Shown here piece by piece: positions 1 to 64,000 of a stretch of DNA of 64,000 bases. The DNA is taken from the IMG/VR virus record IMGVR_UViG_3300048582_000168, positions 1-64,000 of that record, one strand, 5' to 3'. The notes under the pieces are model-generated. The model saw nothing but the letters and a program-made list of their open reading frames with translations. It made no database searches and was not told where the DNA came from. Both the position numbers and the translations under genes were made by a program. Source of the DNA: a virus. Position 1 is the stretch's first letter. Each line of letters opens with the position of its first letter.

Positions 1-1
1 C

Positions 2-1117
2 TTTGACGACCTCGACAAGGTGACGTTCGACGGCCCGTCCGGCCTGATGCGGCTGGTCGAGCGGTTCCCGCACAAGGTCAAGAAAGTCCTGCGCAAGCCG
101 TGGCGGATCGACTTCGTGAACGGCAGCCGCATCAACAGCTTCACCGCAGAGGCAGCCGAGCGTCTGCGCGGCCCGGAACACAACGGGGCATGGCTGGACG
201 AACTCGCGGGCATGGGCAAAAAGGCCGATGAGGTTTACACTCAGGCCAGCTTCGGTTTACGCCGGATGGGCCCGAACCGCGAACAGCCCCGGATGCTGTT
301 GACGTCGACCCCCAAGCCTCTGCCCCTGTTCCGCACCCTGAATGCCCGGTTCAAGGATGGCGACCCGGCGGTCGTCGTGACCCGGGCGTCCACGATGGAC
401 AACATCGCCAACCTCTCGGAATTCGCGGTCAACGAACTGCGCGGGCGCTACGAGGGCACGCGGCTGGGGCGGCAGGAACTCCTTGGGGAACTGCTGACGG
501 ACATTCCCGGCGCCCTCTGGTCGGCGGACATGTTCCAGCGGTCGTCGATGCCGCCGCGCCTTGACCGGGTGGTGGTCGCGGTCGACCCGTCGGGCGCGGG
601 CAGCGCAACCTCGACCAGCGACGCCATCGGCATCGTTGTGGTAGGCGTGATCTTCGGCAAGACGAAAGAGGAAGACCGGTTCTTCATCATCGAAGACGCG
701 ACGCTGGTGGCCAGCCCGAAGGACTGGGCCATGCGGGTCTCCAAGGCTTACGACGACTGGGACGCGGACCGGGTGGTGGCGGAATCGAACTTTGGCGGCG
801 CGATGGTCGAGAGCGTGATCAAGAACGCGGCGCCGAACATCCCCGTGAAGCTGGTCACCGCGACGCGGGGCAAGGTCGTCCGGGCAGAGCCGGTGGCGGC
901 CCTCTACGAACTCGGGCGCGTGCAACACGTCGGCACCTTCCCTGACCTCGAGGATCAGATGATGGCGATGACGGTCACCGGCTACGTCGGAGAAGGCAGC
1001 CCGGACCGCGCGGACGCGGCCATCTGGGGCCTGACGGACCTCATGACCCGGGTGGTCGCACCGAATGCGGCGGTCGGCGGCGGGGTGCGCCCGAGCGCAT
1101 GGCGCCCGAACCTCTGA
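2..1117 (+). CDS. terL: terminase large subunit, 5' end cut by window
   Basis: This is the packaging motor ATPase and nuclease that cuts concatemeric DNA and pumps it into the prohead. The open frame runs off the left edge, so the Walker A part is missing; the first in-window start-like codon is a GTG at 20, but codons before it are open and look native. Counting from that GTG, a Walker B-like segment AWLDE lies at about residues 57-61. The RNase H-fold nuclease acids are visible as D189 in VAVDPSG, E255 in VAESNF and D332 in RADAAIW. Gene order (terminase, portal, MuF-like protein) is classical. Identification is firm; only the N-terminus is unknown. Confidence 0.95.
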   Translation, partial: FDDLDKVTFDGPSGLMRLVERFPHKVKKVLRKPWRIDFVNGSRINSFTAEAAERLRGPEHNGAWLDELAGMGKKADEVYTQASFGLRRMGPNREQPRMLLTSTPKPLPLFRTLNARFKDGDPAVVVTRASTMDNIANLSEFAVNELRGRYEGTRLGRQELLGELLTDIPGALWSADMFQRSSMPPRLDRVVVAVDPSGAGSATSTSDAIGIVVVGVIFGKTKEEDRFFIIEDATLVASPKDWAMRVSKAYDDWDADRVVAESNFGGAMVESVIKNAAPNIPVKLVTATRGKVVRAEPVAALYELGRVQHVGTFPDLEDQMMAMTVTGYVGEGSPDRADAAIWGLTDLMTRVVAPNAAVGGGVRPSAWRPNL

Positions 1118-4482: not shown

Positions 4483-7212
4483 ATGGCATCGGGGCGCATT
4501 CAACCCGGATCGCGGCAATGGGTCGAGGCCATGCGCCGCCTTTCAGGCACCGAAGACACGACGGTCGACATGTCGATGGGGCGCAAGGTGTCCCGCGACG
4601 CGGCCATCCCGCACGGCATGGGCACGGCGACACTTGACACCCGGCTGAGGGGTGCTGGCGCCTTTGTTCCGGTTGACCTGATCACTCCGGCGGTCCTTGC
4701 CTTGTCGGAAGATGAAGACGCCTTGACCTATACGCAGGGCGTCTGGTCGGGCGTGCCAGAGCCGGTAATCACCGGAAACCTGAACGTGGTCGGCGGTCCG
4801 TCTGGAATTTCGGTTCAGCCGGGCCCTATTCCTATCGATGATGCATGGCGTGGACGGCGGGTAAGCATCCTCGAGGGCGCGACCAATGATGGCGGCGCGA
4901 CAGGGATGCAGCAGGTCAGTAATTCTCTGGTGGTCCCTGCATTCCCAGCCTTGGATGCCGACGTGCGGGCTATCGTCGAGGGGCGGGGTTTCGTCTTTGA
5001 CCCGTCCGACCTCTCCACCCTCCGCGACAGCACGGGAGGCCCTATCACGGGGCCTGACCTTATTGGTCGGATCAACGGCAAGTGGGGTGCAGGGACCGAG
5101 AACCTCTCCCTCCAGAGCCCCTTCCCTTCGCTGACCGCAGAGAGTGACCTTAGCTTCTTGCGGGGGCTTGGGTTTGCGGGCTTCAACTTCCGGGGTGGGG
5201 ATGCCTACTGCGTGACGCTGGGCTTCAGGGTTCCCGCCCTTAATGCCGGAACTCTTCTCTATCGCCGTGAGCGAGGCAGCGGCAACGAGATGCTGGACGT
5301 CGTCCTGAACCCTGACGGGACGGTCACGGTCCTGATCGCCGGGTCTGATCAGCAGCGGGCGAACTCCGTCACGATCACTACCACCGACAGGGTGCAGCCG
5401 GGGGAATTCTTCTCGATCACCGCGCTGGCAAACTTCACGGCAAACACCGCCGAGGTCTGGCTGAACGGTGTAAGCCAAGGGACCGGCACCTTCTCGAGCG
5501 CCGCCGGGCCTGCGACCAGCATGACCCAGACGTGGGTGGTTCTGTATGCCATCGAACAGACCCTGTTCCGCCGGGTGGTCGAGTATGCTGGCCTGCCGAC
5601 GGCAGACGAGCGCGACCTGTTCGAGCGGTGGGTCACTCAGTCCGCCGGGGTGGGCCGGTCTCTGAGCGACAAGGTTCAGGCGATCATCGGCACGACGGCT
5701 GGCTTCGCCTTCGACCCTTTCGACTTCGCGACCAACCTGACCACGGGCAACGTTCCGGCGACTGCCCTCGGGCAGCCCATCCTGCGGCAGAACGCCAAGT
5801 GGGGCAGCGCGCCGGGGTTCTTCAGCGGCGGCGGCGTGCGACCCGTGATCGAGGCGCAAGGGCTGATCAACCCGGTGTCGGCGACCACCAACCCGACGAC
5901 GAACGCAGACGCCATCCTGCGGGGGTTTTTCCGCAACCGGTCGGCAATCTTCATCTGTCAGGCGATGCAGGTGCCGCGCCGCCCGGCATCCCGTGCGCAC
6001 GCCATCGCCTGCTCGCAAGTCAGCGGCGCGCTGGGCAGGCTGACCCTCCACACCGACTACGACCTGTCGGTCACGTTCAACTATCGCCGGACCGATCTGG
6101 GCGATGGGGCTGGCAAGGTCGAACTGCCGCCGAACACGCTGGTGCCCGGAGAGCGGACCGTCGTCTCCTGCGCGGTGGACTTTGCGAACGGCGGCGCCCG
6201 CATCTGGAAGGACGGCGTGCTTGGGGACAGCAGCGCCGTCCCGGCGGCGGGCGGAAACCTCGAGGATACCCTGCCGACCCGTGTGCGGTCGGGGGCTTTC
6301 GTCGCGGGCGGCGTCAACGAATTCTTCGAAGGCGGGCTGGGGCGGGCGGTCTATCTGCCGTTCATCCCGACTGCAGCCCAGCAAAAGGTGATCGAGGCAT
6401 GGGCGGCGGAGCCTCCAGAGGTGGAGTTGCCGACGGTCGCCAACCCGACCCTGACCGAGCGCGTGCAGGCCATCCTGCGGCAGACGAAGGGCTTCGCGCT
6501 GGACCCGCAAGACCTGACCCTGCTGTGGCAGGATGATGAAGCGATCACCCCGGTCACGGCGCCCGGGCAGCCGGTCGGCGCCATCCGGTCCAAGTTTGGC
6601 AACACCTCCTACACCTACCGGGCAGCCGACCCCATCGTGACGGCCTACGAAGGCGGGGCAATCTCGTTCGACGGGGCTGACGGCGGCCTGATCAACCCGA
6701 GCGACAACTTCACGACGAGCAACACCGGCATGCTTGTGGTGGCCCGGGTCGCAGCAGTGGCAGGTCAGCAGGATGACGCGCCCGTGGTGGCCTTCCTTGG
6801 CGTCGGCGGCGGCACGCGGATGGCGCTGGAACTGAAGTCAGACCTGCGCCCGGCCTTCTCGGTCGCGAGGCCGGACGCGAACGAACTGCAGATCACCGGC
6901 ACCGCACCCCTGACGCCCGGGCAGGCGCACACCCTGTCGGTCCGTGCCCTTTTCTTGGGCGCCCCCGCCCCCGTGCAGGGGTTCCTCGATGGCGTCCTCG
7001 CGGCAGAGGGCGTCCTCACCGGCACGCCTGCCGTGACCGATGCGCCCGTCGCGCCTTACGGTGGGCTCGGTCAGTGGGGTGACACCGCGCTGCAGTTTTC
7101 GGGCTACGTCGGGCGGGTGGTCTGCGCGCACTTTTTCCAGACCGACAAGGACCGGCAGGTATTCGAGGCATGGGTCGCCGAAGGACCGTGGCCAGCGGTT
7201 CCGCCGGGCTGA
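4483..7212 (+). CDS. large head-region fibre protein with three LamG-like modules
   Basis: The 909-residue product starts at ATG 4483 behind GAGGGGG. Residues 1-55 repeat the docking module of the preceding protein. Three related modules follow, beginning near residues 159, 394 and 657. Each opens with a V-AI-----GF-FDP-D sequence and continues as a beta-sandwich of the concanavalin A/LamG type, with segments such as VWLNGVSQGTG, RIWKDGVLGDSS and GFLDGVLAAEG; each ends near a FE-WV-/AWAAEPP sequence. These folds usually bind carbohydrate. A LamG protein between portal and MuF genes, instead of among tail fibres, suggests a capsid-borne adhesin. That location is inferred from gene order only. 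Confidence 0.65.
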   Translation: MASGRIQPGSRQWVEAMRRLSGTEDTTVDMSMGRKVSRDAAIPHGMGTATLDTRLRGAGAFVPVDLITPAVLALSEDEDALTYTQGVWSGVPEPVITGNLNVVGGPSGISVQPGPIPIDDAWRGRRVSILEGATNDGGATGMQQVSNSLVVPAFPALDADVRAIVEGRGFVFDPSDLSTLRDSTGGPITGPDLIGRINGKWGAGTENLSLQSPFPSLTAESDLSFLRGLGFAGFNFRGGDAYCVTLGFRVPALNAGTLLYRRERGSGNEMLDVVLNPDGTVTVLIAGSDQQRANSVTITTTDRVQPGEFFSITALANFTANTAEVWLNGVSQGTGTFSSAAGPATSMTQTWVVLYAIEQTLFRRVVEYAGLPTADERDLFERWVTQSAGVGRSLSDKVQAIIGTTAGFAFDPFDFATNLTTGNVPATALGQPILRQNAKWGSAPGFFSGGGVRPVIEAQGLINPVSATTNPTTNADAILRGFFRNRSAIFICQAMQVPRRPASRAHAIACSQVSGALGRLTLHTDYDLSVTFNYRRTDLGDGAGKVELPPNTLVPGERTVVSCAVDFANGGARIWKDGVLGDSSAVPAAGGNLEDTLPTRVRSGAFVAGGVNEFFEGGLGRAVYLPFIPTAAQQKVIEAWAAEPPEVELPTVANPTLTERVQAILRQTKGFALDPQDLTLLWQDDEAITPVTAPGQPVGAIRSKFGNTSYTYRAADPIVTAYEGGAISFDGADGGLINPSDNFTTSNTGMLVVARVAAVAGQQDDAPVVAFLGVGGGTRMALELKSDLRPAFSVARPDANELQITGTAPLTPGQAHTLSVRALFLGAPAPVQGFLDGVLAAEGVLTGTPAVTDAPVAPYGGLGQWGDTALQFSGYVGRVVCAHFFQTDKDRQVFEAWVAEGPWPAVPPG

Positions 7213-9998: not shown

Positions 9999-10222
9999 CA
10001 GGAACACCCGGCCTTGACGCGCTTGCGTTCGGTCGCCTCGTGATCGACAGGCTCACCCATCGTGGTTTTCAGGTCGTCAAGCGACACTTGGGCCCGGTAG
10101 GCGTGGCATTGCAGCGAATCGTCGGCAGCCGACTGGGTGTAGGAATCCAAGAGGCGAGGGCCGAAGCCTGCGACAGCACCGGCCACAAGAATCGCGAGCG
10201 GGATGATGAGACGGTTATCCAT
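9998..10222 (-). CDS. small membrane-anchored protein, first gene of leftward cassette
   Basis: The 74-residue product begins MDNRLIIPLAILVAGAVAGF, a single N-terminal membrane segment, followed by about 50 polar residues. The leader contains CTGAAAGG at 10241-10234 (leftward), the same element found before most genes of the early region far to the right. The polar part would lie on one side of the inner membrane. A spanin or superinfection-exclusion role is possible but nothing in the sequence decides this. Confidence 0.65.
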   Translation of the reverse strand: MDNRLIIPLAILVAGAVAGFGPRLLDSYTQSAADDSLQCHAYRAQVSLDDLKTTMGEPVDHEATERKRVKAGCS

Positions 10223-10271
10223 GAGCGAAGCATCCTTTCAGGGGCAGGACAGATCGTCCCGCGATGGAAGG

Positions 10272-10313
10272 CAGGTAAGCAGAGCCGCAGAACTTGTCAA
10301 GTCCAGACTTGAC
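10272..10313 (-). promoter_or_regulatory. leftward promoter with perfect 8-2-8 operator palindrome
   Basis: GTCAAGTCCAGACTTGAC at 10296-10313 is an 8-2-8 perfect inverted repeat. Read leftward it contains the -35 TTGACA (10300-10295), followed after 17 bp by TACCTG (10277-10272). It would drive the four-gene leftward cassette. The palindrome is the most complete copy of a family found on leftward promoters between 35.8 and 50.3 kb. Confidence 0.65.
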
Positions 10314-10388
10314 GAAAACGGGTGCTTTCCGCAGGCCCCATCACAGGCTATTCTAGGCGCAACCGAAACCGCCCGAAACGAGGCTCCC

Positions 10389-13300
10389 ATGAACGCTCCG
10401 GTCGACCGCCGCCTCCCCGCCAAGCGCGCCAAGGCGGCGCTGGCAGGCCTCGAACTTGCCACGGCCATGGCCCGGACGACGGTCGCCAAGAGCATCGAAC
10501 CGAAACCCCTCTACGTCCGCCGCGACCTGTTGAACGCAGCCGATCTGGTGGCGTGGGCAAAGCGGGCAGGGATCCCGAACATCGTCGCCCCGAGCGAGAT
10601 GCACGTCACGGTGTGCTACAGCCGCGCCCCGGTGGACTGGATGGCCATCGGCAACGATTACCGCGACACGGTCATCGTCGGGAAGGGCGGCCCCCGGGCT
10701 CTTGCTCGGTTCGGCAAGACGGACGCCAAGGTGGCGGTGCTGGCCTTCGCCTCGAGCGACCTCGAGTGGCGGCACCGCGAGATGATCGAGCGCGGCGCGT
10801 CGTTCGACTACACGACCTACCGCCCGCACGTCACCATCGGCCTGAACCTGCCCCCGGATTTCGACCTCGATGCGGTGGAGCCCTACCAAGGCGCCCTGCG
10901 GTTCGGTCCCGAGGTGTTCCAAGAGATTGACGATGATTTCACGGTGCGCATGGCCAAGGCAGGCTGGTCGATGCAGCCCCGCGTCCCCAGCGGCCCCAAG
11001 GGCGGCCAGTGGACCGCAGGCGGCTACGGCGGCGGCGCGCTGGCAGTCCCGGTGGCCCCGAAGCTGACCCTGCCGTGGCTTGGGCAGGACGACGTGGCAA
11101 CCCATCGGTTCAAGGGAGACCCGCAACAGGCGGCCTTCATGAAGCCGATGAAGGAAAGCGAGATGACCGGCCAGCCCGCGTGGCTGGGCAATGACGAAGG
11201 CATCGTCCTGAAGAACCCCCAGAAGCCGACCTCGCCCGAGAACAATGACAACCCCGATGATCGGGCAACCTTCGTCGCCGGGCACTCCCCGGGCGAGGGG
11301 CTGAACGGCGTCCCGTTCAAGCCGTGGGATGGGCCCGAGGGCGGCGACTGGGCCAAGGTCGGCGGCACGGGCGACTTCGATGAGCCGGACCTGCCCGCGA
11401 CCAAGGGCAAGCGTCTGGGCGCGGGCGTGGTCATCACCGAACCCGACGGGCGGGTGTGGACCCTGACCCCGACAAACCACTTCGGCGGCTATTTCGAGAC
11501 CCTGCCGAAGGGCGGGATCGAGCCCGGCCTGAACCTGCGCCAGACGGCGATCAAGGAAGCGTGGGAGGAAAGCGGCCTGCAGGTCAGGCTGACCGGCTAC
11601 ATCGGCGACTTCGAACGCAACACCAGCGTCGCGCGCTACTACCGGGCAGAGCGGATCGGCGGCGACCCGACCGATTACCACTGGGAGACGGCGGCGTCGC
11701 ACCTCGTGCCGATGGACGACCTCGACGACGCCTTGCATCATGTGAACGACAAGCCCATACTTGCCAGACTGAAAGGTGAATCGGACACGGTCATCAAGCT
11801 GGCACTCGGCTTCGCAGACCTCGTCGAACTGCTGGGAGACATCGTTGAAAAGGGCAAGGCTTGGTCATCCCAGCCGCGCGTCCCTTCCGGCTTCCCCACG
11901 GGAGGCCGCTGGATGAAGGGCGGCTATGGCGGCGGCGGGTGGGGCGGCATGTTCGCAGAGAACGCGACCGCTCTGACCCTGCAGAAGCACGGCGGCACCG
12001 GCCCTCAGTCCGAGGCGCTGAACGCCAAGATCAAGATGTTCGAAGACGCGGCAAACCAAGGCTACGTCCACCCGGCAGCCCAGAAACTGATCCTGAAGCC
12101 GAAGCCTGCCCAGACCTACAGCGCGGCAGCGTGGGAGAGCGCGAACGAAGCCGCGACCTACGTCCACGCGATGAAGGGGATGGGCAAGAAGTTTGCAGGC
12201 GCCTCGATGGGGCTCGGCAGCGGCACGACGAAGCCCGCCAAGCCGAAGGCGCCGGACGCGGACCTCTACACCCAGCCCATCGGCACCTTCAAGGATCCGA
12301 TGAAGTTGTCGGACATGACCAAGGTCGGCGCGAAGCCGGGCGGGTCGGCAGCCGGTGCGCTTTACAAGGATGCGGCGGGCGACACTTGGATGGTGAAGTC
12401 CTACGACACCGCCGGGATGGCCTTCAACGAAGTGACGGCGGCCAAACTCTACGGGATGATGGGCGTCGCCGTTCCCGAGATGAAGCTGATCAATCTCGGC
12501 GAGGCGCACAAGGGCGGCATCGGCGTGGCGTCCAAGATGATGGACCTGAAGCCGTTCGACCAGAACAATGCCGCGCACGTCAAGGCAGCGCAGGAAGACT
12601 TCGCAGCGCACGCGCTGATGGCGAACTGGGATGCCGTCGGCCTGTCGTTCGACAACCTGATGATCGACGCGACGACCGGCAAGACGGTCATGGTCGACCC
12701 CGGCGGATCGATGCTCTACCGCGCCCAAGGCGGCCTGAAAGGCGATGCCTTCAAGAGCAACGTCACCGAACTCGACACCTTGCGCGACGCGACCAAGAAC
12801 CCGACCGCCGCGAAGGTGTTCGGCAAGATGACGCAGGAACAGATCGTCAACAGCATGCAGAAGGCCCTCGCGGGTCTGGGCGAGACCGACGAACTGGGCG
12901 GCACCATCCTGAAGCAGGAAGCCGTCAGCGCCATGGTGAACCATTGGGATAAGGCCCAAAACACCACGATGACGAACCTCCAACTGAAGATGGAGGACCG
13001 GGTGATGGACATGTCCGTCAAGGCGAAAGCCATGACGGCAGACTTCGCCTCGACGGCCAGCCTCGACATTGCGACCACCGGCACGACCAAGGACGGTTTC
13101 GCGCACCCGGACCCGAACGTCCAGATGCTGGCCAACCTGCATGATGCGAAGAACCTCGACACGGTCATTCAGGCGCAGACCATCGAGGCCATGAACTTCG
13201 AAGCCAAGATGACGGGGTCGTCCGCGAACTTTTACAGTCAGAAGCTGGAAAAGGCGTCGAAGGCGGCCTTCGCAGGCGACACGACGGGCGTCGCGGCGAC

Positions 13301-15143
13301 CTTCTATGTCCCGACCTCGACCAAGGCCAAGCTGTCGGCGAACTACGGGCTCTACAAACAGGCATTCAAGAGCGTCCAGAGCGTCGGTGAAGCGCAGGCC
13401 GCCCTCAAGCTGCAGGACGCGGCAAAGGCAGGCGACGGCGGGCTGGTGACCGGAGCAAACAAGGTGACCCCGGCAAACGTCACCATGGCCCTGAAAGAGA
13501 GCGGGATGACCGCGCCCGGGACGAACATGCTTCACCCGGACTGGGCGGCGAAGGGCGACCCGACGAACCTCGGAGCCCAGATCGAAGCGGCCAACCTTGC
13601 AGAGACGGCGGCGTCGAGCGTGCCGAAACCGGCAGCCCAGCCGGTGCTGACGGTCCCGACCGCCATGCCGGTCATGCCGAAACTGTCGTCGCCCGCGAAC
13701 CCGAACCTGAAGCTGAACGCGCTGGCAAACGAGATCGCCAAGATCGCGACATCCGGGGAGCCGGACGCGGCGGTGAAGGTTCAGGCCCTCTCGGCCATGA
13801 TCAAGGGCAGCAACAGCTTCTCGATGAAGGCCAAGACCTATGCCGCGAACGTCGTCGCGGCCCTTGGCGGGCAGGCGGCCATCGACGCCACCCCGGCGGC
13901 CCCGAAGAAAAAGGCCCAAGAGGCGGCGATCAGCATCGGCGCGGATGCCCTGACCGGCAAGACCGCGAAGACGGTCAACCTGCCCGACGGGTCGAAGGTC
14001 GAGACCTATACGACCGGCGGGGTGATCTACGAAAAGACCACCTCCATCGTCCAGTTTGACGCCAAGGGCATCCCCGAGCCGCCGAACTTCGCGGCCTTCA
14101 ACGGTGGCAACCCTCTGTCGTCCAAGCCCGAGGTGAACGACGCGAACAACGCCAGCGTGCAGGCCCTCTACGCCAAGGCGATGAAGAACGACATCAAGGG
14201 CCTGATGGAACTCGACATCACGGTCCCGGGCTACGCCAGCCTGCCGGACAGCGTGAAACAGAGCCTCCCCGGCGGCGCGAACAAGCACGTCTCGGGCTAC
14301 AAGTCGCACCTGATCGGCTACCTGCAGAGCGTCGGTCAGGCGATCACGACCGAGAAGGTGATCGGCTTCGAAGGCGGCGGGTCGATTGGCAGCGCGATGG
14401 CCGGGATTTCGGCCAAATTCAAGTCCAAGGGCCCGTGGACGCCCGGCGCGTCGAAGATCGGCGGCTACATCAAGAGCGGGTCGGTCGGCGGCGCACAGGC
14501 GAAGGCGTTCTGGGACAGCCTGCCGATGACCGTCCTGAAGCCCAACACGGCGCTGGCGGGCAAGCTGAAGGACATGACCTACAGCCAACCCGTGAAGGCT
14601 CAGAAGGCCATGAAGGCGCACGTCAGCGGCAAGAGCGACGCCGGGTGGTCGCAGATGCAGGCGGCCCTCTTCACCGGCAAGAAAGGGGACAAGCTGTTCG
14701 ACACCGCCATGCAGAACGCGAAAGACCTGAGCGAAGGTGTCTACGAGATGCCGCCGGGGCTGGTGGTCGGGCGGAAAATCCCGGCCTACGCCAGCGTGAA
14801 GGAATGGCAGGCGTCCCTTGGCGACGTGCTGAACATCCCGGCCCTGTCGTCGACCTCGATCATGCCGGGGGTCTGGTATGGCGAGGTGGCGCTGAAGATG
14901 AAGTTTGCGCCGGGGGCGAAGGCTGCCTATGTCGGCCACACCGACAAGGCGACGAAGACCTCGTCCGTCGGACAGATCGGGCTCGGCAGCGAACACGAGA
15001 TCATCCTGCCGAAAAACACCAAGATCATCCCGGTCAAGGTCTACACCAGCGACGGAAATGACGACTTCTTCGGCAACAGCATGAAGGGGAAGACCATCGT
15101 CGAGGTGCTTGTCATCGGCAACGATGATCCGGAAATTCACTGA
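10389..15143 (+). CDS. giant multi-enzyme protein: Acb1-like, Nudix, kinase-like, ADP-ribosyltransferase-like
   Basis: The 1584-residue product starts at ATG 10389 behind GAGG; frames open further upstream cross the leftward promoter and are unlikely. Residues 40-155 match Acb1-like 2H phosphoesterases, known as phage anti-CBASS enzymes that cut cyclic nucleotide signals: the paired motifs are H72-x-T74 and H147-x-T149. Residues 340-460 form a Nudix domain with its box at about 375-397 (KEAWEESGL; the first Glu of the box is replaced by Leu). Residues 645-800 look like an ATP-grasping kinase fold (K670, E681, DN at 755-756, VDPGG at 769-773). The C-terminus has an STS motif at 1488-1490 and E1535-x-E1537, as in ADP-ribosyltransferases. 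Two QPRVPSG...GGYGGG linkers (near 197 and 495) separate domains. The gene lies next to the MuF-type protein, so it may be packaged and injected. Confidence 0.8.
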   Translation: MNAPVDRRLPAKRAKAALAGLELATAMARTTVAKSIEPKPLYVRRDLLNAADLVAWAKRAGIPNIVAPSEMHVTVCYSRAPVDWMAIGNDYRDTVIVGKGGPRALARFGKTDAKVAVLAFASSDLEWRHREMIERGASFDYTTYRPHVTIGLNLPPDFDLDAVEPYQGALRFGPEVFQEIDDDFTVRMAKAGWSMQPRVPSGPKGGQWTAGGYGGGALAVPVAPKLTLPWLGQDDVATHRFKGDPQQAAFMKPMKESEMTGQPAWLGNDEGIVLKNPQKPTSPENNDNPDDRATFVAGHSPGEGLNGVPFKPWDGPEGGDWAKVGGTGDFDEPDLPATKGKRLGAGVVITEPDGRVWTLTPTNHFGGYFETLPKGGIEPGLNLRQTAIKEAWEESGLQVRLTGYIGDFERNTSVARYYRAERIGGDPTDYHWETAASHLVPMDDLDDALHHVNDKPILARLKGESDTVIKLALGFADLVELLGDIVEKGKAWSSQPRVPSGFPTGGRWMKGGYGGGGWGGMFAENATALTLQKHGGTGPQSEALNAKIKMFEDAANQGYVHPAAQKLILKPKPAQTYSAAAWESANEAATYVHAMKGMGKKFAGASMGLGSGTTKPAKPKAPDADLYTQPIGTFKDPMKLSDMTKVGAKPGGSAAGALYKDAAGDTWMVKSYDTAGMAFNEVTAAKLYGMMGVAVPEMKLINLGEAHKGGIGVASKMMDLKPFDQNNAAHVKAAQEDFAAHALMANWDAVGLSFDNLMIDATTGKTVMVDPGGSMLYRAQGGLKGDAFKSNVTELDTLRDATKNPTAAKVFGKMTQEQIVNSMQKALAGLGETDELGGTILKQEAVSAMVNHWDKAQNTTMTNLQLKMEDRVMDMSVKAKAMTADFASTASLDIATTGTTKDGFAHPDPNVQMLANLHDAKNLDTVIQAQTIEAMNFEAKMTGSSANFYSQKLEKASKAAFAGDTTGVAATFYVPTSTKAKLSANYGLYKQAFKSVQSVGEAQAALKLQDAAKAGDGGLVTGANKVTPANVTMALKESGMTAPGTNMLHPDWAAKGDPTNLGAQIEAANLAETAASSVPKPAAQPVLTVPTAMPVMPKLSSPANPNLKLNALANEIAKIATSGEPDAAVKVQALSAMIKGSNSFSMKAKTYAANVVAALGGQAAIDATPAAPKKKAQEAAISIGADALTGKTAKTVNLPDGSKVETYTTGGVIYEKTTSIVQFDAKGIPEPPNFAAFNGGNPLSSKPEVNDANNASVQALYAKAMKNDIKGLMELDITVPGYASLPDSVKQSLPGGANKHVSGYKSHLIGYLQSVGQAITTEKVIGFEGGGSIGSAMAGISAKFKSKGPWTPGASKIGGYIKSGSVGGAQAKAFWDSLPMTVLKPNTALAGKLKDMTYSQPVKAQKAMKAHVSGKSDAGWSQMQAALFTGKKGDKLFDTAMQNAKDLSEGVYEMPPGLVVGRKIPAYASVKEWQASLGDVLNIPALSSTSIMPGVWYGEVALKMKFAPGAKAAYVGHTDKATKTSSVGQIGLGSEHEIILPKNTKIIPVKVYTSDGNDDFFGNSMKGKTIVEVLVIGNDDPEIH

Positions 15144-41548: not shown

Positions 41549-43063
41549 TCAGAGCAAGAGGTTACGCAGGGTATCGACCGTCATGGTCCCGATATCGGTC
41601 TTGGCGGCGAGCGCCTTCAGGATGACCTCATCCATCGACCCGGTGGCCACGAAGTCGGTGTAGAAGCAAGGCGCCTTCTGGTCGCCCCGGTGAATCCGCT
41701 TGATCGACTGGATCCGGTGTTCAAGGTGAAAGCTGTTGGCGATGTAGAAGGCCCGCGAGGCCCATTGCATCCCGTCGACCCCCGTCCCGCCGGAGGCAGG
41801 GTTCGCGATCAGCACGCCCCCCTTGGCCTTCCAGACGTCCACGTCGGCCAGTGTCCGGAACCGGGTGCCGCCCTCGCCAAAGACCTCCTCGAGCCGGTTC
41901 AGAAGCGGGATGAAGGGAGCCCAGATCACCACCGGAGCGCCGCCAAGGTCTTCGACCGCCTCCTTGATGGCGTCGATCTTGGCGTCCGACAGCCAATGCA
42001 CGGTGCCGTCCTCATCGCGGACGAAGCCCGAGGCGATCTCCTGCAGGCGCAGAAGCTGGGTCAGCACGATCTGCGCGGTCACCACGGTCGAGCCCGTCGC
42101 GGTCCGCAGGCCCGCCATCATCAGGCTCTCCATCTGGCCGTAAGCCTTCAACTGCGCGCCTTCCATTTCGACCTCGTAGGTCTGGAAGACCTGCGCAGGC
42201 ATGTCGATGGCGTCGATATCGCGGACCCGAGAGGTGAAGGGCGCAATGCGCGCCATCAATTCGTCCTGATTTTTCGGCCCGATGATCCGCACGGCTTTAG
42301 GCTGGCCGGGGACCGGGGCGGTCTTGCAGAACTTGTCGCGGAACCGCACGAAGCTGTCCGCATCGCCTTTTCCGTCGGGGCCCGGGCGCGAGATGATCAG
42401 CTTGTCGAGGAAGGCGAACTGCGTCCACAAGTCCTGCACCCCCTGCAGGATGGGCGTGCCGGTCAATGTCCGGCGGACCTTGGCAGGATGCACCCCGTCG
42501 CGGGCATAGCGCAGCACGCCCCGGGTCTGCTGGGCCAGAGGATCCTTGATCCGGTGGGACTCGTCGACGCAGAGGTAAACCCCCCGTTTCGAGGTGGTCA
42601 TGATCCGGTCGAGAAGCTGGACCGCCGCAGGCAGGGGGACGTAGTGACCCTTCGTCGGTCGCCCGATGCGGATGGCCTCGAAGTTGAAGGCGAAGACCCG
42701 CAACTTGCGCTGGATTTCCCCGACCTGCAGTGCGACCTCGAACTCGTTCAGCCGCTTGCCGGACGCAAGCCCGCCCTTCGGCCAAAACCAGCCCTTCCAA
42801 GCGTAACCAGCCCAGCGCGGGAACTGCTTCTCGACCCATTGGCGGGAAACCCGGTTCGGGGCGATGATGACCAGCGTGTCGATATCCCCGTCGAGGAACA
42901 TCTCGCCCGCCTCCGCGATGACCGACAGGGTCTTGCCGGTCCCGGGGTCGTGCTGCAGGGCGAAGGCCGCCCGGTTGCGCGAGCGCGCCTTTGCCGACAC
43001 CTGATGGTGCCAAAGCGGACCTTTGACGGGCGAGGTGGCGGGCTGGGGAGCAGCAGCATTCAT
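41549..43063 (-). CDS. SNF2-like DNA helicase/translocase
   Basis: The 504-residue product is a superfamily 2 ATPase. Walker A is HDPGTGKT at about 38-45, motif Ia is LVIIAPNRV, the Walker B box is DESH at 167-170, motif III is TGTP at 201-204, and motifs V/VI are PASGGTGVDGMQWASR and IQSIKRIHRGDQ near the end. This is the pattern of SNF2-type translocases found in many phages, used in replication or recombination. No extra nuclease domain is seen. Its TGA lies inside the CTGAAAGG of the following gene. Confidence 0.9.
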   Translation of the reverse strand: MNAAAPQPATSPVKGPLWHHQVSAKARSRNRAAFALQHDPGTGKTLSVIAEAGEMFLDGDIDTLVIIAPNRVSRQWVEKQFPRWAGYAWKGWFWPKGGLASGKRLNEFEVALQVGEIQRKLRVFAFNFEAIRIGRPTKGHYVPLPAAVQLLDRIMTTSKRGVYLCVDESHRIKDPLAQQTRGVLRYARDGVHPAKVRRTLTGTPILQGVQDLWTQFAFLDKLIISRPGPDGKGDADSFVRFRDKFCKTAPVPGQPKAVRIIGPKNQDELMARIAPFTSRVRDIDAIDMPAQVFQTYEVEMEGAQLKAYGQMESLMMAGLRTATGSTVVTAQIVLTQLLRLQEIASGFVRDEDGTVHWLSDAKIDAIKEAVEDLGGAPVVIWAPFIPLLNRLEEVFGEGGTRFRTLADVDVWKAKGGVLIANPASGGTGVDGMQWASRAFYIANSFHLEHRIQSIKRIHRGDQKAPCFYTDFVATGSMDEVILKALAAKTDIGTMTVDTLRNLLL

Positions 43064-61883: not shown

Positions 61884-63122
61884 ATGCAGACCGTCCAGCG
61901 CGACCCGAAGACCCTGACCCCGCACCCGAAGAACAGCCGCAAGCACACCGCGACCCAGATCGAGATGCTGGCGGACGCGATGCTGGCCTTCGGCTTTCAC
62001 CAGCCGGTCGTCGTCGACGCGAACGACGTGATCCTGATCGGCCACGCGCGGACCGAGGCGGCCATCGCGGCAGGGCTCACCACCATCCCGGTCGTCGTCC
62101 GGTCCGACCTGACCGAAGCGCAGGCCCGCGCGCTGATCGTCGCGGACAACCGGCTGCACGAATTCGGCGCCGGGTGGGATGAGGCCATCCTCGGCGAAGA
62201 ACTCCGCGCGCTGATGGCCGAAGGCATCGACGTCACGGTGACAGGTTTCGATACCCCGGAGCCTGTTGCTAAAAAAAGCAAGACGGCAGACGAAGACGAT
62301 GTGCCGGAGCCCCCGGCCACGCCTCTCACGCAACCCGGCGACGTCTGGATCCTCGGGCAGCACCGGCTGCATTGCGGGGACTCGACCAGCCCGGACCTCT
62401 TGGCGGCCTGCATGGCAGCGAAGCCGGTCGCGATGGTCACAGACCCGCCCTACGGGGTGGTCTACGACGCGGCATGGCGCGACGAAGCTGGGATCGGCAG
62501 CGAAGGCTCGGCCAAGGGCGTCGTGCTGAACGACGACCGCGCGGACTGGCGCGAGGTGTGGGCAGGCTTCACCGGAGCGGCGGCCTTCGTCTGGCACGCG
62601 GGCACGAGGGCGCATGAAGTCCACGAGAGCCTCGTCGCGGCAGGGTTCGACGTGAAAGCGCAGATCGTCTGGGCCAAGAACCGGGCGGCCATCGGTCGCG
62701 GCCATTACCACCACGGCCATGAGCCCGCGTTCTATGCCACCCGCAAGAAAGCCAAGCCGAAGTGGCACGGCCCGGCGCTGTCCACCCTCTGGGAGATCGG
62801 GCACTCGCGGTCGCACACCGGCCACTCGACGCAAAAGCCGGTCGAGGCCATGCGCAGGCCCATCCTCGCCCTGACCGCGCCCGGGGACGTCGTGTTCGAA
62901 CCGTTCAGCGGGTCGGGCACCACCCTGATCGCCTGCGAGATGGTCGGGCGGACCTGCGTCGCCATCGAACTGAGCCCGGAATACTGCGACGTCGCTGCCA
63001 CGCGCTGGGCCCGCTGGACGGGCGAAAAGCCCAAGCTGATGCGGGCAGGCGTCGAGGTGGACCTGCCGGACCCCGCCGGGCAGGCAGGCAGCGAAGCGGG
63101 CGTGGTGGAGATTGCCGAATGA
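61884..63122 (+). CDS. ParB-like domain fused to DNA methyltransferase
   Basis: The 412-residue product begins with a ParB/Srx-like domain (LTPHPKNSRKHTATQI, PVVVDANDVILIGHARTEAA; residues 10-95). A linker rich in Glu and Pro follows. The methyltransferase has the beta-class order: DPPY at 187-190 (VTDPPYG), then the target-recognition part, HSTQKP at 315-320, and the SAM motif FEPFSGSGTT at 338-347 with E362. It would methylate adenine-N6 or cytosine-N4 in a short DNA motif and protect phage DNA or change regulation. No restriction partner is nearby. Confidence 0.9.
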   Translation: MQTVQRDPKTLTPHPKNSRKHTATQIEMLADAMLAFGFHQPVVVDANDVILIGHARTEAAIAAGLTTIPVVVRSDLTEAQARALIVADNRLHEFGAGWDEAILGEELRALMAEGIDVTVTGFDTPEPVAKKSKTADEDDVPEPPATPLTQPGDVWILGQHRLHCGDSTSPDLLAACMAAKPVAMVTDPPYGVVYDAAWRDEAGIGSEGSAKGVVLNDDRADWREVWAGFTGAAAFVWHAGTRAHEVHESLVAAGFDVKAQIVWAKNRAAIGRGHYHHGHEPAFYATRKKAKPKWHGPALSTLWEIGHSRSHTGHSTQKPVEAMRRPILALTAPGDVVFEPFSGSGTTLIACEMVGRTCVAIELSPEYCDVAATRWARWTGEKPKLMRAGVEVDLPDPAGQAGSEAGVVEIAE

Positions 63123-64000
63123 AGATCGCCGAAGTCGCCATCGAAGCCCTGATCCCGCACCCGCAGAACAGCCGGACCCATAGCGCCGAACAGGTCCGCG
63201 CGCTGGCCCGGGCGATCACCGAATGGGGCTGGACCCAGCCGGTCGTCATCGACGAAGCGAACGTCATTCTGATCGGGCACGGGCGCGTCGAGGCGGCCAA
63301 GACCCTCGGGCTGAAGACCGTCCCCTGCGTGCAGCGCGGCGATCTGAGCGACGCGGACAAGCGCGCCATGCTGATCAGCGACAACCGGCTGGCCGAAGTC
63401 GGGTCGTCGTGGGACAAGGACATTCTGGCCGAAGAACTGCGCTTCCTCGCCTTTGCGGACTTCGACGTCAGCCTGACCGCGTTCGACCTGCCGGAATTCG
63501 CCCCCACCCCGGAGCCGGAGCCCGCACTGCCGCGCCCGTCGACCGTCCAGAGCGGCGAAATCTGGAAGCTGGGCGCCAACCTCCTGATCTGCGCGGACGG
63601 CGGCGACCCGAGCGTCCTGCAGGCCATGGCACCGAAGGACGCGGCGCTGGTCGTCACCCGGATCCCTGACGACGTCGGCGCCGGGCTTCTGGCGCAACTC
63701 CTGAACCTGACCCCGGCCAAGATCGCCTACCTCTGGTCCTCCGGCCTGCGCAGCCATGTGGGCGGCCACGCGGCCCATGAGGCGGGGTTCGACGTCCGCG
63801 CCCAGATCATCATCCCGACCGAGGCCAAGCCCCGGGAAAAGGGCTTTGCGACGGGGCACAAGGCGGGGCTCTACTGCGCCAAGGCAGGCGGCCCGCCATG
63901 GGCCGGAGGCCGCAAGCAGACGACCGTCTGGGCATCCGAGGATGAGATGCCGCTGCAGCCCTTCGTGCGCCCGCTGCGGAACCACGTCCCGACCGGAGGC
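63119..64000 (+). CDS. ParB-methyltransferase paralogue without DPPY motif, 3' end cut
   Basis: This gene starts at ATG 63119, overlapping the previous stop, and runs off the window after 294 codons. Residues 1-125 match the ParB-like part of the preceding protein closely (LIPHPQNSRTHSAEQV, VILIGHGRVEAAK). The second part aligns with its methyltransferase, but where the first has VTDPPYG this one has VTRIPDDVG (residues 179-187), and about 25 following residues are missing. The rest (AHEAGFDVRAQIIIP, GHKAGLYCAKAGGPPW) is still recognisable. It is probably a catalytically inactive partner, or a DNA-binding derivative. The SAM motif would lie beyond the window. Confidence 0.8.
   Translation, partial: MKIAEVAIEALIPHPQNSRTHSAEQVRALARAITEWGWTQPVVIDEANVILIGHGRVEAAKTLGLKTVPCVQRGDLSDADKRAMLISDNRLAEVGSSWDKDILAEELRFLAFADFDVSLTAFDLPEFAPTPEPEPALPRPSTVQSGEIWKLGANLLICADGGDPSVLQAMAPKDAALVVTRIPDDVGAGLLAQLLNLTPAKIAYLWSSGLRSHVGGHAAHEAGFDVRAQIIIPTEAKPREKGFATGHKAGLYCAKAGGPPWAGGRKQTTVWASEDEMPLQPFVRPLRNHVPTGG

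Follow-up and report, generated by a model that had tools for sequence, protein, structure and literature searches.

An intact ParB-methyltransferase and its motif-deficient paralogue in a tailed-phage genome: a candidate active/inactive heterodimer

Paracoccus phages are known to encode ParB-methyltransferases ahead of their terminase genes, with a packaging-linked role suggested for them (PMC6536676), and ParB domains in phage fusions of this sort can bind NTPs (PMC12704722). The related beta-class enzymes CcrM, M.RsrI, M1.HpyAVI and M.BceJIV are homodimers of identical active chains. The CcrM dimer is built mainly by its methyltransferase domains, with H134–D113 pairs and F130 in the interface, and its two monomers perform different work at one site: K118, E135 and Y34 hold the target adenine, and Loop-2B, which follows DPPY, is partly disordered in the noncatalyzing monomer (PMC6787082). 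The type III Mod2 dimer (EcoP15I) places its methyl groups on a single strand (PMC4490356); both Mod chains derive from one active gene, with no separate inactive paralogue. Such a paralogue, with eroded motifs, accompanies the active subunit in the MT-A70 heterodimers METTL3-METTL14 and MTA1-MTA9 and contributes there to the binding of substrate (PMC9174199, PMC9852454).

The window analyzed here is a stretch of 64,000 nucleotides, bases 1 to 64000 of a 65,305-bp virus record (IMGVR_UViG_3300048582_000168). Gene order runs primase-like, primase/helicase-like, small genes, gene A, gene B, a gene in the small-terminase position, large terminase, portal, and MuF. The C-terminal part of the large terminase lies at the start (2..1117, plus strand; Terminase_6N and 6C) and its N-terminal part at the record end, and window positions 1 to 142 overlap record positions 65164 to 65305 with two mismatches (142 bp), inside the terminase gene. 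Because the record end runs into its start, the A/B pair lies inside a tailed-phage genome that is probably represented almost in full; no exact terminal repeat of the record was found, and its ends may reflect either a circle that is nearly closed or a strain mixture. The high GC content (∼69%) and the occurrence of the pair's nearest relatives in Rhodobacterales suggest an alphaproteobacterial host. After the portal/MuF region, a 1646-amino acid protein (10203–15143, plus strand) carries an Acb1 (anti-CBASS phosphodiesterase) domain (residues 102–247; Pfam 4.9e-34) and a NUDIX domain (residues 403–522; 2.3e-13) and may be an injected multi-domain anti-defense protein. A SNF2-type helicase (Pfam 2.6e-13) is encoded on the minus strand (41549–43063) of this otherwise mostly plus-strand genome.

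Gene A (61884..63122, plus strand; 412 amino acids) encodes an intact beta-class N6/N4 DNA methyltransferase fused to an N-terminal ParB-N domain. Its motifs occur in the order IV…X–I of active beta-class enzymes: DPPY at residues 187 to 190 (62442..62453), TQKP at 316 to 319, and EPFSGSGTT at 339 to 347, including the motif I core FSGSG (residues 341–345; 62904..62918), so that the motifs are complete, as the initial annotation had stated. By alignment, the loop after DPPY (residues 191–221; 62454..62546) is equivalent to CcrM Loop-2B. DPPY is present without exception in 26 aligned DPPY homologues; the motif makes N6-adenine the most likely target. The protein matches Pfam N6_N4_Mtase (79.9 bits, 3.4e-22) and phrog_498 (6.9e-114), and its structural model matches CcrM and M.BceJIV with Z scores of 19.5 to 19.8. 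Nothing in its sequence sets gene A apart from the large phage ParB-methyltransferase family (phrog_498; ParB-Tls locus), whose domain order and pre-terminase position it shares.

Gene B (63119..64207 of the record, 63119..64000 in the window, plus strand; 362 amino acids) overlaps gene A by four bases (ATGA), and the two proteins align from end to end (33% identity, E 7e-59), in agreement with the earlier description of coupled genes sharing a ParB-like N terminus and a methyltransferase body. Its frame is open and free of internal stops. The ParB domain (residues 1–128; 63119..63502; Pfam ParB_N 2.5e-07, 31.1 bits against a cutoff of 26.3) retains a GHGR box with R56 intact. In contrast, N6_N4_Mtase scores only 12.5 bits, far below its cutoff of 26.7. 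The peptide RIPDDVG (63659..63679) stands where gene A has DPPYGV (TRIPDDVG aligned with TDPPYGV), and the next ∼30 residues are deleted, a replacement and loss correctly identified in the initial annotation. Since the window cuts gene B at residue 294 of 362, leaving 207 bp beyond its end, that annotation could not extend to the end of the gene, where a further loss is found: SAM-binding motif I reads DPFAGESLG, as compared to EPFSGSGTT in gene A. The lost motifs predict that gene B no longer binds SAM or catalyzes methyl transfer. No aligned or surveyed relative outside the B clade lacks both catalytic motifs, and in this respect B differs from other phage ParB-N6/N4 methyltransferases.

The fold of B appears to be retained, as originally proposed. 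Its AlphaFold2 model has a mean pLDDT of 85.5 (mostly 92–98 in the body) and matches CcrM (6pbd; Z 17.4, 187 residues, rmsd 3.2 Å) and 2zie (Z 17.4); the modeled body is a complete, Rossmann-like beta-class methyltransferase fold, nearly equaling gene A in its match. The ParB part resembles ParB-CTP/CDP structures (Z 12.5–13.6; 13.5 for the ParB-CDP structure 6sdk), and both A and B possess the ParB/Srx NTP-binding fold with its GxxR phosphate-binding box, in which R56 is invariant. Among the 26 DPPY relatives, 17 positions of the ParB domain and 84 of the methyltransferase body are near-invariant; the four B proteins described below all retain 16 of the former but only 22 of the latter, a contrast whose Fisher value is descriptive because the residues are not independent.

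Scans of viral contigs identified B orthologues in three further lineages, at 79% (L012/L013), 67% (L005/L006), and 43% (L015) identity, each accompanied by a matching A orthologue (87%, 79%, and 54%, respectively); three of the four lineages with the pair, the window included, are close. Adjacency of the two genes and their place ahead of the terminase genes are conserved, and the four-base overlap is present in three lineages. In L015, A and B lie ∼840 bp apart, and the interval contains an unrelated ORF of ∼170 amino acids (5362–5874) that starts like a signal peptide and has, at its C terminus, a PLPAAGFLLLGAIGGLGALARRR segment similar to VPLPA/PEP-CTERM sorting signals; a Pfam search with this ORF gave zero matches. 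The catalytic motif [DNS]PP[YFW] is missing from all four B proteins, and SAM-binding FxGxG is replaced by FAGES or LAAGG. The window B carries RIPDDVG and DPFAGES, its nearest relative (L012/L013) RVPDDVG and DLFAGES, L005/L006 EVPKALK and DPFAGES, and L015 QAFQSDV and DPLAAGG. The initial annotation had asked whether RIPDDVG is conserved; instead, it is the loss of DPPY that is conserved, and because the literal string is not, RIPDDVG probably does not act as a motif in its own right; with only the nearest relative being similar, that reading was rejected. No B relative with an intact DPPY, the sign of recent decay named in that annotation, was found among the four, nor does any of the four frames show the frameshift that an assembly error would leave.

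Beyond the four lineages, three scans of viral sequences and one of genomes for B yielded only ParB-only proteins or active enzymes, and a sample of ∼1,190 prokaryote genomes (E 1e-45) contained zero further B-like genes, the matches carrying DPPY or SPPY. DPPY is present in 80 other close gene A relatives and in those from prokaryote genomes. No degenerate B-type partner was found beside these ∼80 close DPPY relatives, indicating that A-type enzymes generally need no B partner. Of the 80 loci, 13 do show a second adjoining ParB-methyltransferase (in two cases truncated by the contig end), but with SPPY and an intact FxGxG; thus, degeneration marks a single clade and not tandem pairs in general. 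Tandems of this kind are carried by prophages and plasmids of Rhodobacterales (L017, L065, L119, L127, and others), where they likewise consist of two adjoining ParB-methyltransferases, one with DPPY, but differ from A/B in that the second gene keeps SPPY and EPFxGSG. In many Rhodobacterales-type prophages (the same four loci, L089, L139, L162, and others), DPPY and SPPY genes occur in either order; the SPPY partner is probably an N4-cytosine enzyme, giving two chemistries per tandem. In a tree of 43 proteins, SPPY genes form a separate clade, so that this pairing arose independently of B and an SPPY-type origin of B is ruled out.

The four B proteins form one clade in the same tree (support 100/99), joined with A in a single clade (98/98; A clade alone 83/79), and branching order is identical in the A and B trees: (L015,(L005,(window,L012))). 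The simplest history consistent with these sequences would be a single duplication of a DPPY gene, loss of catalysis by one copy before the L015 split, and subsequent co-inheritance. Among the window, L012 and L005, dN/dS by the Nei-Gojobori method, with the L015 comparisons left out as near saturation, is 0.30 to 0.33 for gene B (0.30–0.38 for the body alone) and 0.18 to 0.24 for gene A. By this measure gene B is under purifying selection and is maintained as a protein. Loss shared by four lineages, low dN/dS, one duplication, matching tree order and a retained fold together give good support to the earlier proposal that B is a selected noncatalytic paralogue.

To place A and B against the CcrM dimer, two CcrM homologues (L181 and L182) were aligned with them, and CcrM numbering was transferred by way of the pattern D113-x-x-W-R-K118…F130-x-x-x-H134-E135. 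CcrM D113, F130, and H134 correspond to Q260, Y275, and H279 of gene A and to Q229, F243, and H247 of the window B (residues 229–247; 63803..63859); across the four B proteins these positions read Q/Q/Q/Q, F/F/F/Y, and H/H/H/H. In contrast, none of the four keeps an equivalent of the residues that hold the target base, K118, E135, and Y34. Where gene A keeps K265 and E280 for K118 and E135, the B proteins have T/T/T/R and K/R/V/D (T234 and K248 in the window B), and the Loop-2B region is deleted. For three interface positions in a distant alignment, the pattern is suggestive, being that expected of a permanently noncatalytic dimer subunit, although B may have retained its Q and H because folding, and not a dimer face, requires them.

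The initial annotation had offered three functions for B: a heterodimer partner that might widen DNA recognition, a DNA-binding inhibitor, or a ParB-type partition factor. Since the equivalents of the CcrM interface are kept and the catalytic ones lost, a heterodimer partner fits best, and we put at about even the chance that A and B are an obligate or preferred beta-class heterodimer in which B, like METTL14 or MTA9, is the fixed noncatalytic subunit. The small number of lineages with the pair, the lack of such a partner beside the other ∼80 close DPPY relatives, and the ∼840-bp gap between the genes in L015 count against this reading. Partition is disfavored: no ParA-type ATPase (AAA_31) match was found in the record, and in B a methyltransferase body replaces the HTH and C-terminal dimerization domains, so the parA partner and HTH of a ParABS system are both missing. 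A different, if rather unlikely, explanation is that B alone acts as a ParB-type, NTP-dependent DNA-binding protein, loading for example at packaging sites by the terminase genes, with its body a scaffold or DNA platform and A no partner. B has kept its ParB domain better than any other part, down to R56 of the NTP pocket, the NTP binding reported for phage fusions (PMC12704722) is compatible with such a role, and ParB proteins that stand alone come next among the matches; the genes also lie in a ParB-TerL (ParB-Tls) locus, for which a guiding role in packaging-time modification has been put forward (PMC6536676). However, the body too is under purifying selection and retains a full fold, B was never found without A, and the lack of a recognizable ParA counts here as well.

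That B regulates or inhibits A, through inactive mixed dimers or competition for DNA, and so limits methylation of host DNA or delays methylation to late infection, is quite unlikely. A protein with the same fold, a likely dimer face, and a dead active site would make a dominant-negative subunit, and translation of the two genes is coupled, but an inhibitor would have no need of a conserved ParB domain, and conserved 1:1 translational coupling suits a stoichiometric subunit equally well or better. A gain of some other activity, such as binding of a new ligand in what was once the SAM pocket, or a nickase or NTPase function of the ParB domain, is improbable. Its appeal lies in FAGES, GLRSH, and a WAGGRKQTTVW block, all common to the three closer B proteins, and in a nicking ParB-methylase cited in PMC5512222; yet L015 has AAGG and EIGAL in place of FAGES and GLRSH, and zero new catalytic signatures were recognized in B. 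Lost catalytic motifs might also signify a decaying paralogue or an assembly error, which is highly improbable: in all four lineages the frame is intact and the same losses are found, and dN/dS is well under 1. Frameshift and recent decay were rejected on these grounds.

For the preferred heterodimer, we infer heterodimerization, activity, division of labor, target and biological purpose as follows. A would bind SAM, flip the target base and methylate it. B, a duplicate of A, would have given up SAM binding, catalysis and the catalytic DNA-entry loop and kept its fold, dimer face and own ParB domain, becoming a permanent version of the noncatalytic monomer that a CcrM-type homodimer presents at each DNA site. 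It might stabilize A, hold the nontarget strand or set recognition asymmetry, and its second NTP-binding ParB domain might help load or locate the complex on phage DNA before packaging. A/B resemble CcrM, M.RsrI, M1.HpyAVI and M.BceJIV in fold and dimer-face residues, unlike them in that those chains are identical and active, and share the beta-class fold with the Mod2 dimer of EcoP15I, from which a separate inactive paralogue distinguishes them.

The arrangement is reminiscent of METTL3-METTL14 and MTA1-MTA9: B is an inactive paralogue with an eroded catalytic motif, and its model matches METTL3 and MTA1 with Z scores of 12 to 13. Those pairs are MT-A70 enzymes, whereas B is a phage beta-class duplicate with a ParB domain, in a presumed complex; a Pfam search of A and B gave N6_N4_Mtase and ParB_N, not MT-A70. 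If partners, A and B would be a viral counterpart of the eukaryotic active/inactive pairs. No description of an inactive ParB-methyltransferase partner was found in the literature searched, in which subscription papers are sparsely covered. That an active/pseudoenzyme DNA methyltransferase heterodimer evolved in phages independently of eukaryotes, with the ParB NTP switch of B retained, we consider somewhat short of an even prospect. Should A and B prove to be one enzyme, the step from symmetric methyltransferase dimer to active/inactive pair, for which METTL3-METTL14 and MTA1-MTA9 are the usual examples, would have a small and genetically simple case in a virus. A and B being separately mutable, the role of the ParB NTP-binding domain in phage methyltransferases would also become testable.
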